Positions 7,903 to 13,920 of a DNA stretch of 37,530 nucleotides are shown here, one piece after another. The stretch is from a virus, in the IMG/VR virus record IMGVR_UViG_3300037459_000019, positions 1 to 37,530 of that record; one strand, written 5' to 3'. Both the position numbers and the translations under genes were made by a program. A model generated the notes under the pieces. The model was not told the DNA's origin. It saw only the letters and a program-made list of their open reading frames with translations, and made no database searches. Position 1 is the first letter of the stretch; each line of letters opens with the position of its first letter.

Positions 7903-8103
7903 ATGAACTTAGAAAAATCATTTAGAATAGCACTAGCAACTAAAGGCATGACCAAGCAAGATTTGGCTGCTCAAATGAAATGTACTGGCGCTTATATAAC
8001 GCAAATAACTAAAGGCGGCTCAATGTCTGTCAGTAAGCTTCAAGACGTATGTAGTGAGTTGGGTTATAAGGTTTGGGAATTCATTAAATTAGGGGAAGAT
8101 TGA
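7903..8103 (+). CDS. XRE-family Cro/CI-like repressor (66 aa)
   Basis: A single helix-turn-helix DNA-binding domain: MNLEKSFRIALATKGMTKQD, then LAAQMKCTGAYITQITKGG as the turn and recognition helix. There is no C-terminal cleavage or oligomerisation domain, so it is Cro-like rather than CI-like. An AGGAATAATT ribosome site precedes ATG 7903. It faces the leftward recombination operon across a repeat-rich gap, the usual place for a switch regulator. Its stop overlaps the next start (TGATG). Confidence 0.85.
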   Translation: MNLEKSFRIALATKGMTKQDLAAQMKCTGAYITQITKGGSMSVSKLQDVCSELGYKVWEFIKLGED

Positions 8104-8678
8104 TGCCGATAAAAAGAATAGTTTATACGTTCGGCGTTAATGACGCTGACTACAAAGTAAAATCCATAGTGCTAGGTAAGAAGGTTAACTGCCCTTTTTA
8201 CCTGTCATGGTCTAGCATGTTAAGGCGTTGCTATTCTGCAGAATTCCACAAAAGAAACCCTACGTATAAGGTATGTACAGTTTGTGATGAGTGGTTATTA
8301 TTTTCAAACTTTAAAAAATGGATGGAAAATCAGGACTGGGAAGGCAAATACCTAGACAAAGACATATTAACCCAAGGGAATAAGACCTACTCACCAATTA
8401 ACTGCCTATTTGTTAGTATGCAAGTTAACTCTTTATTTAATGAATATAAAAAAGGAAGGGGAAAGCACAAAAGAGGAGTAACACTAAATAAAAGATTAAA
8501 CAAGTACATCGCACAATGCACATATAAAGGCGGTAGATTTCATTTAGGTTGCTTTAACAATGAAACAGACGCGTTCAAAGTGTATAAGTTATTCAAATAC
8601 ATGGTAATAGCTATGCTAGCAGAAAAGCAAACAGAACCTCTAAAGTCATCAATGCTAAACTATAAAATACAAGGGTAA
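8103..8678 (+). CDS. AP2-domain homing endonuclease-like protein
   Basis: I start at ATG 8103, which overlaps the XRE stop (TGATG) and has an AGGGGAAG ribosome site; a TTG one codon earlier is possible. Residues about 30-100 hold the conserved block WSSMLRRCYS with TVCDEWLLFSNFKKWM, seen in phage HNH/AP2 proteins. Residues about 120-165 form an AP2-like DNA-binding domain (RGVTLNKRLNKYIAQ, then FHLGCFNNETDAFKVYKLFK). A closely related paralogue lies at 10257-10808. Such genes are usually free-standing homing endonucleases. I do not see a clear catalytic HNH triad, so enzymatic activity is unproven. Confidence 0.75.
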   Translation: MPIKRIVYTFGVNDADYKVKSIVLGKKVNCPFYLSWSSMLRRCYSAEFHKRNPTYKVCTVCDEWLLFSNFKKWMENQDWEGKYLDKDILTQGNKTYSPINCLFVSMQVNSLFNEYKKGRGKHKRGVTLNKRLNKYIAQCTYKGGRFHLGCFNNETDAFKVYKLFKYMVIAMLAEKQTEPLKSSMLNYKIQG

Positions 8679-10256: not shown

Positions 10257-10808
10257 TTAAATTTTATAGTTTAATAAAGCGGCCTTTAATGGTTCTGCTT
10301 GTTTTTCTGCTACTTTCCTTATCACTTCGTACTTAAACTTTTTGTACACTTCATGAGCCTCTAGTGGTGTATCAAAAAACCCCAAGCTAGTTGCCTTTCC
10401 ATTAACTCTGCATTGAGAGTGATATTTTTCACTTTTTTTGTTAAAACTTACACCTATTGGATACTTCCCTCTAAAATTAGATCTATTGGTAAGTAAACTA
10501 TTCAAGCTACCATGTACAAAAATACAAGTTTCTGCACTGTAAATCTTGTTACCTTGAAATAAAATATCCTTATCAAGTTGCTTTCCTTTCCAGTCTTGAG
10601 TTTTCATCCATGAGCTAAAAGAGCTAAATAAAAGCCATTCGCTAGATACTGAACAACCAATATAGTTTGGTCTTTTTTTATGAAGCTTGGGATCGTAACA
10701 CCTCTGAAGCATACCTTGCCAAACCTTATAAAAATCACAATTCGGCTTATTTTTTGGCTGAACAATATACTCAGCATCATTAATGGCAATTCCGTAAAGC
10801 AACCCCAT
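10257..10808 (-). CDS. AP2-domain homing endonuclease-like protein (second copy)
   Basis: Paralogue of the gene at 8103-8678. The shared blocks are QGMLQRCYDPKLHKKRPNY with SSEWLLFSSFSSWM, KGKQLDKDILFQGNKIYS, and an AP2-like end (IGVSFNKKSEKYHSQCR, then SLGFFDTPLEAHEVYKKFKY). ATG 10808 has AGGGG six bases upstream. It is oriented opposite to its paralogue, so the two flank the accessory region at 8970-10260. A 12-base palindrome (TTAAAATTTTAA) and a TGTC-N5-GACA site lie just before it. DNA binding is likely. Cleavage is assumed from the family only. Confidence 0.75.
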   Translation of the reverse strand: MGLLYGIAINDAEYIVQPKNKPNCDFYKVWQGMLQRCYDPKLHKKRPNYIGCSVSSEWLLFSSFSSWMKTQDWKGKQLDKDILFQGNKIYSAETCIFVHGSLNSLLTNRSNFRGKYPIGVSFNKKSEKYHSQCRVNGKATSLGFFDTPLEAHEVYKKFKYEVIRKVAEKQAEPLKAALLNYKI

Positions 10809-11461: not shown

Positions 11462-11599
11462 ATGAAATCTAAGAAAGTTCAACCGTTAAACCTAGAAGAA
11501 GAAGTTATTGAACTGTTAAAAGCTAGAGCTGGTGTTAATGATCGCTCTATGTCTGCTGAAGCTAATAGAATTTTAAAAAAGGAGTTGAATAAAAAGTAA
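11462..11599 (+). CDS. Arc-like ribbon-helix-helix repressor (45 aa)
   Basis: ATG 11462 has AAAGGGG upstream. The sequence (MKSKKVQPLNLEEEVIELLK, then ARAGVNDRSMSAEANRILKK) fits the RHH fold: an N-terminal strand KKVQPLNL, helix 1, a turn with N-D-R-S-M-S, and helix 2. Such proteins dimerise and bind short direct repeats, which are present in the promoter in front of it (11393-11424). P22 Arc is the classic relative in form. Target and role are inferred. Confidence 0.75.
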   Translation: MKSKKVQPLNLEEEVIELLKARAGVNDRSMSAEANRILKKELNKK

Positions 11600-11629
11600 A
11601 TAAGTATTAATATTGTTTTGTTGTTTGGC

Positions 11630-11720
11630 GTCGATTCCAGATGATAGATAAGGTTTAGTAGGTATTTCTGGGGTTATTAAGTTAACCCAATCGACCAGAT
11701 GTACCCACTAAGCCTTTTTT
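11630..11720 (+). ncRNA. Possible pseudoknotted structured RNA ending in a U-run (or complex terminator)
   Basis: Three helices can be drawn: GTCGATT (11630-11636) with AATCGAC (11689-11695); AAGGTTTAGTAGGTA (11650-11664) with TACCCACTAAGCCTT (11702-11716), two G-U pairs; and GGGTTA (11671-11676) with TAACCC (11683-11688). The first pairs into the loop of the second, forming a pseudoknot. The RNA ends in TTTTTTATT. It lies 30 bases after the RHH gene, so at minimum it is that gene's terminator. An independent regulatory RNA is possible. Confidence 0.5.
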
Positions 11721-11804
11721 ATTACCTCGATTTCAGCAACTCGATTATTCTTTATGCGTCACGGTTTCGGCTGTCCCGGTTCGAGTGTAATTTAAAGTGT
11801 TAGA

Positions 11805-11900
11805 ATGTACGCCCACAACACAACTGAGTTTTTAGTTAATTATAGGGGCTGGACTGCTGAACAGGCAGGAATGATTAACCGAGCTATTAACTGTTTATAA
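11805..11900 (+). CDS. Weak tiny ORF (31 aa)
   Basis: ATG 11805 encodes MYAHNTTEFLVNYRGWTAEQ and 11 more residues (AGMINRAINCL). The amino acid make-up looks protein-like, with a WTAEQAGMINRAI helix, but the only ribosome site is a poor AAAGTGT. The end of the ORF overlaps the hairpin at 11882-11908. It may be a real micro-gene or chance. Confidence 0.25.
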   Translation: MYAHNTTEFLVNYRGWTAEQAGMINRAINCL

Positions 11901-11909
11901 TAATAGCTT

Positions 11910-12008
11910 ATGAGTTCTCTACGGAGATGGTATAAGAATCAACTATGTGAATCCTTACCGGGTATTAGTGGTTTAACTCATAGTGACCTGAGTCAATTAT
12001 TCGTTTAA
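11910..12008 (+). CDS. Weak tiny ORF (32 aa)
   Basis: ATG 11910 encodes MSSLRRWYKNQLCESLPGIS and 12 more residues (GLTHSDLSQLFV). No clear ribosome site precedes it and its start lies in a hairpin stem. It is listed because the sequence is not repetitive and fills part of the 550-base gap. Confidence 0.2.
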   Translation: MSSLRRWYKNQLCESLPGISGLTHSDLSQLFV

Positions 12009-12154
12009 TTGTCCTTTGGGTTTTCTATGAATTTTACTAAAGAAACTTATCCAAAGAGTTATTAATAAATATATATACTATAGAGTTTATAGTTAGTAAT
12101 ACAGTTTGTTATAAATCCGCAATACGGTTTACAGGCTTACAATTTGGAGGTTAT

Positions 12155-12394
12155 ATGTTGCCTAAGCATCACTACGACTCAGAGAATAGCTCTGTTTATA
12201 ATGATAGTAATTGGATAAGCGAACAAATAGATCAGTTGCCTATTTCTATGCAAAAGAAAGTAACCAGTAAATATAGTGATATTTATTTACAGCTCACTAA
12301 AGAAGAAGATCGAAAGGTTAGATTTAGAGTTAACACATGGCTAAGAAAGACGGTTGAAAAAAATAAAATAACAAACACAGAAGGGTATTTCTAA
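12155..12394 (+). CDS. Hypothetical protein upstream of helicase (79 aa)
   Basis: A strong TTGGAGG ribosome site precedes ATG 12155. The protein begins MLPKHHYDSENSSVYNDSNW and continues with helical, charged segments (EQIDQLPISMQKKVTSKYSD, then FRVNTWLRKTVEKNKI). Its TAA overlaps the helicase ATG, so the two are coupled, which suggests a role as helicase partner or loader. No family recognised. Confidence 0.65.
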   Translation: MLPKHHYDSENSSVYNDSNWISEQIDQLPISMQKKVTSKYSDIYLQLTKEEDRKVRFRVNTWLRKTVEKNKITNTEGYF

Positions 12395-13920
12395 TGTTAT
12401 ACGAACTAAGGCCACACCAACAAGCAGCACTAGACGAATTAAGGGTTTCATTTGCAAAAGGATTGAAGCGGCCTATGCTTTACGCTCCTGTTGCGTTTGG
12501 CAAAACAATAGTAGCCGCTCATATTGTTACCGCAGCACTTGATAAAGGGAAAAGAGTTTTGTTTGTTGCTCCTTATACGGCGCTAATAAATCAAACCGCT
12601 AGATCGTTTATGGCCCAAGACATACCGCAACCAGGAATAATGCAAGCCGATCACCCATGGACTAACCCGGGCAAAAGATTACAAATTGCATCAGTCCAAA
12701 CTTTAGCCAGAAGGCAACTACCAGAGGTTGATTTAATCATAGTTGATGAGGCGCATCTTCAATACTCAGTTATTTGTAAATTAATAGAAGAAACTGAAAT
12801 TCCTGTGATTGGTCTTAGTGGCTCGCCTTTTTCAAAGGGTTTAGGTAAGTATTATGACAATTTAATACACACTACATCAATGCGACAATTGATTGATGAA
12901 GGCTTTCTTTCTGACTATGTAGCTTACTCTCATGACAAACCAGATCTAACAGGAATTAAAACTGTTGCTGGTGATTATCACGAAGGTCAACTTGGGGATC
13001 GTATGAGCGATCCTAAGCTTGTTGGTTGTGTAATTGATACTTGGTTAAAGCATGGAGAAAACAGGCCTACAATTTGCTTCTGCGTGAATGTAGCTCATGC
13101 TGAGTTTATAGGGGCTGAATTTGAAAGAGTTAATATATCCAACGTTGTGATCACCGGGCGAACACCGATGGAAGATAGAGAGGTGTATTTTACCCAATTC
13201 AAAAAAGGAAATATTAAGGTACTTGTTAATGTTGGGACTTTAGTTGCCGGGTTTGATTCAGATGTGAGATGCATTATTGATGCTGCGCCAACTAAATCAG
13301 ACATTAGGCACGTTCAAAAATTAGGCAGGGGATTAAGGACCGCGACAGGTAAAGATCACTTAATAATATTAGATCATGCTGGCAACTTGGTTAACCTTGG
13401 TTTTCCTGATGATATTGAGATTGACAAGTTAGACAACGGTAGCAAGCAAGAAGCTGCCGAACGTAAAGAAAAACAAGCTAAAGATAAAAAAGAAAAAGAA
13501 CCTAAAGAATGCTCCAAGTGCCACCACATGAAAAAAGCAGATGAACACGAATGCTCAAAATGTGGGTTTGTTCCTAAATTTATTGAAAATGTAGAAGTGG
13601 AAGAAGGGGAGCTTACATCAATTAAAGCAACCAATAAATACACCAAAGACGATAAGCAGCGTATATGGTCCGAAATCAAAGGGTATCAGCGAGAGCGAAT
13701 GCTATCAGGTAAAAGCCTTACTGATGGTTGGTGTTCACACTTATATAAAGACATGGTTGGTGTGTGGCCTAGAAACCTAAGAGATTCAGCTTTACAACCA
13801 AGCGAGCAAGTCAGGGGGTTTATAAAACATAAAGCTATCGCGTGGGCCAAATCTAAAAATAAAATGAAGGATAGAGCTAAACACGCAGAGTGGACCGAAA
13901 GAAGACAGAATATAGCTTGA
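12394..13920 (+). CDS. DEAD/DEAH-box helicase (superfamily 2)
   Basis: This ATP-dependent helicase of the type-III restriction/RadD-like group probably opens DNA for replication. Motif I is APVAFGKT (residues 31-38), motif II DEAH (118-121), motif III SGSP (142-145) and motif VI QKLGRGLRT (308-316). A lysine-rich linker (355-371) leads to a zinc ribbon with C373, C376, C387 and C390, and then a helical C-terminus. The 508-aa length is typical for phage helicases that precede a primase gene. The start overlaps the preceding stop (TAATG). Confidence 0.92.
   Translation: MLYELRPHQQAALDELRVSFAKGLKRPMLYAPVAFGKTIVAAHIVTAALDKGKRVLFVAPYTALINQTARSFMAQDIPQPGIMQADHPWTNPGKRLQIASVQTLARRQLPEVDLIIVDEAHLQYSVICKLIEETEIPVIGLSGSPFSKGLGKYYDNLIHTTSMRQLIDEGFLSDYVAYSHDKPDLTGIKTVAGDYHEGQLGDRMSDPKLVGCVIDTWLKHGENRPTICFCVNVAHAEFIGAEFERVNISNVVITGRTPMEDREVYFTQFKKGNIKVLVNVGTLVAGFDSDVRCIIDAAPTKSDIRHVQKLGRGLRTATGKDHLIILDHAGNLVNLGFPDDIEIDKLDNGSKQEAAERKEKQAKDKKEKEPKECSKCHHMKKADEHECSKCGFVPKFIENVEVEEGELTSIKATNKYTKDDKQRIWSEIKGYQRERMLSGKSLTDGWCSHLYKDMVGVWPRNLRDSALQPSEQVRGFIKHKAIAWAKSKNKMKDRAKHAEWTERRQNIA

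Follow-up and report, generated by a model that had tools for sequence, protein, structure and literature searches.

The 6S RNA/tR' leader of phage lambda is a short, constitutive RNA with a terminator end, situated upstream of an operon; to our knowledge, no conserved pseudoknot is known in it. ToxI-type RNA antitoxins, which are pseudoknotted and relevant to phages, need tandem repeats and an adjacent toxin. The putL and putR RNAs of phage HK022 contain two adjacent hairpins within about 70 nt and need no dedicated protein, with putL lying just downstream of an early promoter (PMC9378689). GOLLD and ROOL are phage-encoded RNAs of unknown function that occur near or around tRNAs and contain kissing loops (PMC12286853). 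Finally, the Vibrio phage ICP1 and the satellite PLE carry loci devoid of open reading frames (ORFs) that give rise to very abundant noncoding transcripts (PMC7567579).

The window analysed here is the whole of viral record IMGVR_UViG_3300037459_000019 (37,530 bases), which its genes (terminase, RecT, helicase, primase and tail spikes) assign to a tailed phage. It contains 555 bases without any ORF of at least 40 aa, bounded by an RHH gene and by a 79-aa ORF with a helicase gene, and an earlier sequence-only reading had correctly placed a candidate pseudoknotted RNA there, between the RHH gene and replication genes. The RNA within this region, denoted RNA1, and its neighbours comprise the following features:

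11462–11599, plus strand: RHH (FitA/Arc-like) gene, 45 aa (Pfam FitA-like_RHH, 6.6e-08)
11619/11620–11724, plus strand: whole RNA1, about 105 nt; match to the covariance model R1 at 113.3 bits
11619–11646, plus strand: P1 hairpin, 11619–11628 with 11637–11646; 91% of cells paired in 14 relatives
11630–11636, plus strand: 5' strand of the kiss, the P1 loop (GUCGAUU); paired in 100% of cells across its seven pairs, six of which show two-sided changes
11650–11670, plus strand: 5' side of P2 (11650–11658, 11659–11665 and 11667–11670)
11672–11687, plus strand: P3 apical hairpin, 11672–11676 with 11683–11687; 100% of cells paired, two-sided changes in four of five pairs
11689–11695, plus strand: 3' strand of the kiss, the 7-nt bulge within the 3' arm of P2 (AAUCGAC); supported by covariation and by a kiss table of 33 sequences
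11696–11716, plus strand: 3' side of P2 (11696–11699, 11701–11707 and 11708–11716); supported by covariation in 14 relatives
11715–11720, plus strand: U-run (U6) after P2, terminator-like; invariant in the 14 aligned relatives
12155–13920, plus strand: downstream 79-aa ORF and DEAD-type helicase

The early region of the window encodes a pair of HNH endonucleases on opposite strands (8100–8678 and 10257–10808), both belonging to phrog_953 and having an AP2-like end, and several relatives carry endonuclease or methylase genes also downstream of RNA1.

Every helix described in the sequence-only reading is present in the window. The 7-bp helix is formed by perfectly complementary segments (GTCGATT at 11630–11636 and AATCGAC at 11689–11695), the 15-base helix that it crosses (11650–11664 with 11702–11716) comprises 13 Watson-Crick pairs, one G-U pair and one A-C mismatch, and the third hairpin inside the loop (P3) and the final U-run were likewise found. 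P1 is an additional hairpin that this description did not include, and its loop supplies the 5' strand of the crossing helix; since P1 forms, the 7-bp helix amounts to a kiss between a hairpin loop and the bulge of the long hairpin that follows. P2 consists of 20 pairs with internal mismatches, 91% of whose cells are paired. The nested fold of 11620–11725 has an energy of −38.5 kcal/mol, compared with −19.75 kcal/mol (sd 3.41) in shuffled sequences (z −5.5), and none of 200 shuffles folded as low. Forcing the kiss bases to remain unpaired left the nested minimum free energy (MFE) of the window copy unchanged (−38.5 kcal/mol both ways), indicating that the kiss can form alongside every other stem and adds to the nested fold. 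A mutually exclusive alternative fold, such as an antiterminator pairing, was not visible, and the kiss and the terminator hairpin can coexist. Few conserved bases are unpaired in the alignment of relatives.

Compensatory changes in both crossing stems, proposed earlier as a check on the candidate, were observed in 14 distinct relatives, with two-sided changes in six of the seven kiss pairs and in seven pairs of P2. Nor were the stems broken in these relatives, as 93.9% of cells were paired vs 83.9% in shuffles; two-sided changes affected 19 pairs (10.2 in shuffles) and 57 cells (17.4 in shuffles), and none of 500 shuffles reached the observed value on any of these measures. When the partner strand was slid by 1–3 columns, at most 49% of cells were paired; the shuffle control ignores relatedness, whereas the sliding control keeps it and still abolishes the signal. 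The best-supported helix is the kiss, all seven pairs of which form in 14 of 14 sequences. Its letters change from GUCGAUU/AAUCGAC in the window to CUGAAGC/GCUUCAG (contig L002), CUCGAAC/GUUCGAG (L004), CUAGAGC/GCUCUAG (L007) and GUGGUGA/UCACCAC (L021), and about 18 distinct kiss sequences occur family-wide, nearly all complementary over at least 7 bp. Tested by shuffling one sequence at a time, the kiss receives weak support in each (p from 0 to 0.66 in the table of 33 sequences), so the case for this helix is made by agreement across the family. RNA1 is a real, compact structured RNA, conserved by structure rather than by letters.

Diversifying selection on the kiss was also considered and rejected: conservation is lower in the kiss columns than elsewhere (0.56 vs 0.79, p 0.0004), but central P2 varies just as much (0.55), which makes neutral compensatory drift a sufficient explanation.

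A helicase-based search yielded ten relatives, seven of which keep the whole region at 78–87% identity and two the RNA only, the contig of the remaining one stopping ahead of the RNA1 region. Five more (L012, L020, L021, L023 and L025) were recovered by scanning viral contigs for the pattern, and R1 matched two more contigs in bacterial assemblies, L099 and L102, both encoding the same phage helicase and being the full R1 members among the listed matches of that scan. The R1-defined family shows a P1 loop–P2 bulge kiss of at least 6 bp, a U-run and a promoter in register. The same architecture is found in phage isolates, namely Vibrio phages 1.115.A and 1.233.A, Pseudoalteromonas phages HS1 and HS5, further Vibrio breoganii phages, NF, vB_VnaS-L3 and H105/1, and in about 17 more contigs; R1 scores 47 bits in Vibrio phage vB_VnaS-L3 and 33 bits in NF, and most of these wider members were admitted because they share the architecture, a complementary kiss and the placement of the promoter, a weaker basis than a match to the model. 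A sub-family (HS5, NF, H105/1, L193, L201, L206, L215, L223, L224 and others) possesses a second pseudoknot between the linker and the apical loop, whose letters again change. In HS5 (L166, 20851–20978; HS1 identical), the U-run is missing, although both pseudoknots and the other parts of the fold persist. The most divergent member, L185 (about 544–667), has a kiss of 13–14 bp and has nearly lost P1, the two totalling about 17, which resembles the 10 + 7 of the window.

Contigs L039, L055, L107, L148 and others were rejected as members, since they score at most about 33 bits with R1 and have the appearance of ordinary hairpins. Genomes of Vibrionaceae and related orders gave, apart from the known Aliivibrio contig, only terminator-like matches near 30 bits, an absence that is weak evidence because large genomes were scored on few candidates. 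A blastn search of the window region against phage records returned no match.

The gene context of RNA1 varies across the family, which spans many marine phages and IMG/VR contigs. Replication genes accompany it in the window clade, and elsewhere it lies after a block of capsid genes (L020), after a tail gene (L023), beside head genes (L184) or, in other relatives, by methylase or endonuclease genes; the RHH gene adjoins it in the window's own clade only and is absent in other members. These changing neighbours argue against the control of one particular gene.

At the curated gathering scores of Rfam 15, no match was found in the window, L010, L012, L020, L021, L023 or L025, and only tRNAs were found in 22 further related loci; relaxed thresholds added chance miRNA-type matches only. 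The GOLLD and ROOL models gave no match at the curated threshold in these 29 sources (the window and 28 loci). No description of the family was found in the literature searched, most subscription papers and preprints lying outside its coverage. We thus read RNA1 as an undescribed RNA family without an Rfam counterpart. It is similar to HK022 put in having two adjacent hairpins by a promoter, and unlike it in that neither a pseudoknot nor a terminator at the end is described for put (PMC9378689); searching HK022 with R1 gave nothing at E values up to 10. With GOLLD and ROOL it shares tRNAs in or beside the RNA, in some RNA1 loci and not in the window, but GOLLD often exceeds 800 nt, whereas RNA1 measures about 105 nt and has its own terminal U-run. 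The nearest parallels are the put RNAs, which act on the beta' zinc-binding domain to suppress downstream termination, and GOLLD/ROOL, which form homo-oligomeric cages; each fails on a membership feature that was tested. The ICP1 RNA is about 800 nt and ICP1 has no tRNAs, whereas RNA1 is far shorter and some relatives have them. Compared by description only, RNA1 resembles the lambda 6S RNA as a short RNA with a terminator end. Like ToxI-type RNAs it is pseudoknotted, but neither tandem repeats nor an adjacent toxin was seen: the 37,530-base record holds a single match to RNA1 and no second copy, and the neighbours are the RHH, HNH nuclease and helicase genes.

A putative promoter precedes RNA1:

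11585–11613, plus strand: predicted sigma-70-type promoter, TTGAAT (11585–11590), 17-nt spacer and TAATAT (11608–11613), overlapping the end of the RHH gene

Transcription is predicted to start at about 11620, at the foot of P1. The position of the promoter is conserved in the 24 relatives tested (mean of 9.0 of 12 consensus matches vs 5.4 in shuffled upstream DNA), and the window copy is weak (8 of 12, p 0.37). The U-run is kept in nearly all family members, though missing in HS5; its conservation argues for a short product, and the tRNAs found beyond it argue for some read-through.

Beyond RNA1, the noncoding region continues:

11725–12154, plus strand: RNA2 block, conserved and noncoding, from RNA1 to the next gene; no ORF of at least 40 aa, best conserved at about 11800–12035

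Its invariant stretches include TATGAGTTCTCTACGGAG and TGGTTTAACTCATAGT. RNA2 occurs in several types; its structural signal by MFE is weak (z −1.4), and its compensatory pairs are too few for a structure model. All four contigs retrieved through an RNA2 motif alone carry RNA1 upstream. An RNA2-type sequence also follows RNA1 in Vibrio phage 1.133.O. At most loci, the gap after RNA1 is noncoding, mostly of about 250–460 nt, and is followed by a gene in the same direction; the few opposite-strand genes called there are short ORFs overlapping RNA2. tRNAs follow RNA1 in Vibrio phage 1.085.O, L193, L194, L196, L201 and L224, and tRNA genes (Trp, Arg, Ser, Tyr) lie between RNA1 and the next gene in L180 (538–685), L193, L201 and L224. 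The first tRNA begins at or a few bases from the U-run in L180, L193 and L201; in 1.085.O the base directly after the U-run is the start of tRNA-Trp, and in L193 tRNA-Ser starts about 4 nt past it. Such tRNAs lie too close to the U-run to be preceded by a separate promoter, from which we infer read-through. ARAGORN found no tRNA or tRNA remnant after RNA1 in the window. Extra long-stem modules, sometimes two in tandem, lie downstream of RNA1 in L195, L199, L206, L223 and L224; their long closing stems are GTCTGTATATGTGGTGG...CCCCTTCATATACAGATTACC and relatives, and they have no Rfam match.

What RNA1 does can be read in several ways, and the sequence-only reading had itself listed a regulatory RNA, an attenuator and an antisense or toxin-antitoxin-type RNA. 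Its view that the element is more than a plain terminator is borne out by the fold compared with shuffles, the kiss covariation and the wider family. An intrinsic terminator of the RHH gene, with the extra pairing arising by chance, would account for the stable stem followed by a U-run, and ordinary Vibrionaceae terminators do share an AAGGCUU...AAGCCUUUUUU stem that scores about 30 bits with R1; but the stem of RNA1 is long, internally looped and unlike a minimal terminator, shuffles never fold as well, members exist without the RHH gene, and covariation in the crossing helix refutes this explanation, which we consider extremely improbable. An antisense or toxin-antitoxin role finds hardly any unpaired seed, no linked toxin gene and an RHH gene confined to the window clade, and with so few free bases an antisense action is disfavoured. 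Of the earlier proposals, the structured, probably regulatory RNA is supported; these two options are not. We hold as a tentative possibility that RNA1 is a cis-acting leader, the 5' element of an operon transcript governing whether transcription continues into tRNAs, RNA2 and the gene beyond, either as an attenuator or as a put-like element modifying RNA polymerase. The predicted start at the foot of P1, the same-direction gene beyond most loci, the tRNA-Trp and tRNA-Ser placed at the U-run and the likeness of two hairpins at a promoter to putL (PMC9378689) would suit such a leader, and tRNAs directly after the U-run keep the attenuator proposal possible; yet the downstream genes differ widely, R1 does not match HK022, and an attenuator would lack an exclusive antiterminator fold, the kiss coexisting with the terminator stem. 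It is unlikely, in our estimate, that RNA1 serves as the 5' domain within a single large and ornate phage RNA of the GOLLD/ROOL kind, composed of RNA1, a tRNA-capable linker and RNA2. Kissing loops occur in GOLLD, whose linker can hold tRNAs (PMC12286853), and the RNA1–RNA2 linkage, the tRNAs between them and the additional modules in L195, L199, L206 and L223 point the same way, but nearly all members close RNA1 with a U-run, RNA2 exists in several types with weakly supported structure, and neither GOLLD nor ROOL was matched in Rfam.

We favour, at about even confidence, the reading of RNA1 as a small RNA gene that has its own promoter and a terminator-like end and whose stable product is recognised by its shape, in a family outside Rfam. 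The fold, the covariation, the roughly 18 kiss types, the positioned promoters, the U-run, the differing contexts and the few unpaired conserved bases count in its favour, and the weak window promoter and the absence of a U-run in HS5 count against it; the near-constant presence of RNA2 after RNA1 and the tRNAs at the U-run fit a longer transcript equally well. As a small RNA gene, RNA1 would be transcribed from its own promoter, its 5' end being paired in P1 from base one or two; the P1 loop would kiss the bulge of the P2/P3 hairpin, clamping the two hairpins together, and in the sub-family the linker would additionally pair with the apical loop. Having almost no single-stranded bases, the RNA should be rigid, nuclease-resistant and act by its shape, most likely in trans through binding of a host or phage protein or as a decoy, and not by antisense pairing. 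It would also be the first unit of a noncoding-RNA island, with partial read-through of the U-run leading onward into tRNAs in some phages, the RNA2 block and the gene after it.

New families of pseudoknotted RNA with good support are rare, and RNA1 covaries across about 18 kiss types. Its presence in cultivated Vibrio and Pseudoalteromonas phages makes it open to immediate testing, and its association with tRNAs and RNA2 is relevant to the role of the large phage noncoding RNAs found near tRNAs. More speculatively, and with considerable doubt, marine phages may possess a previously undescribed polycistronic RNA island that opens with a kissing-loop RNA and in which interchangeable structured modules, tRNAs and a conserved 3' block would constitute one multi-domain RNA machine or a co-produced set, without a dedicated protein.
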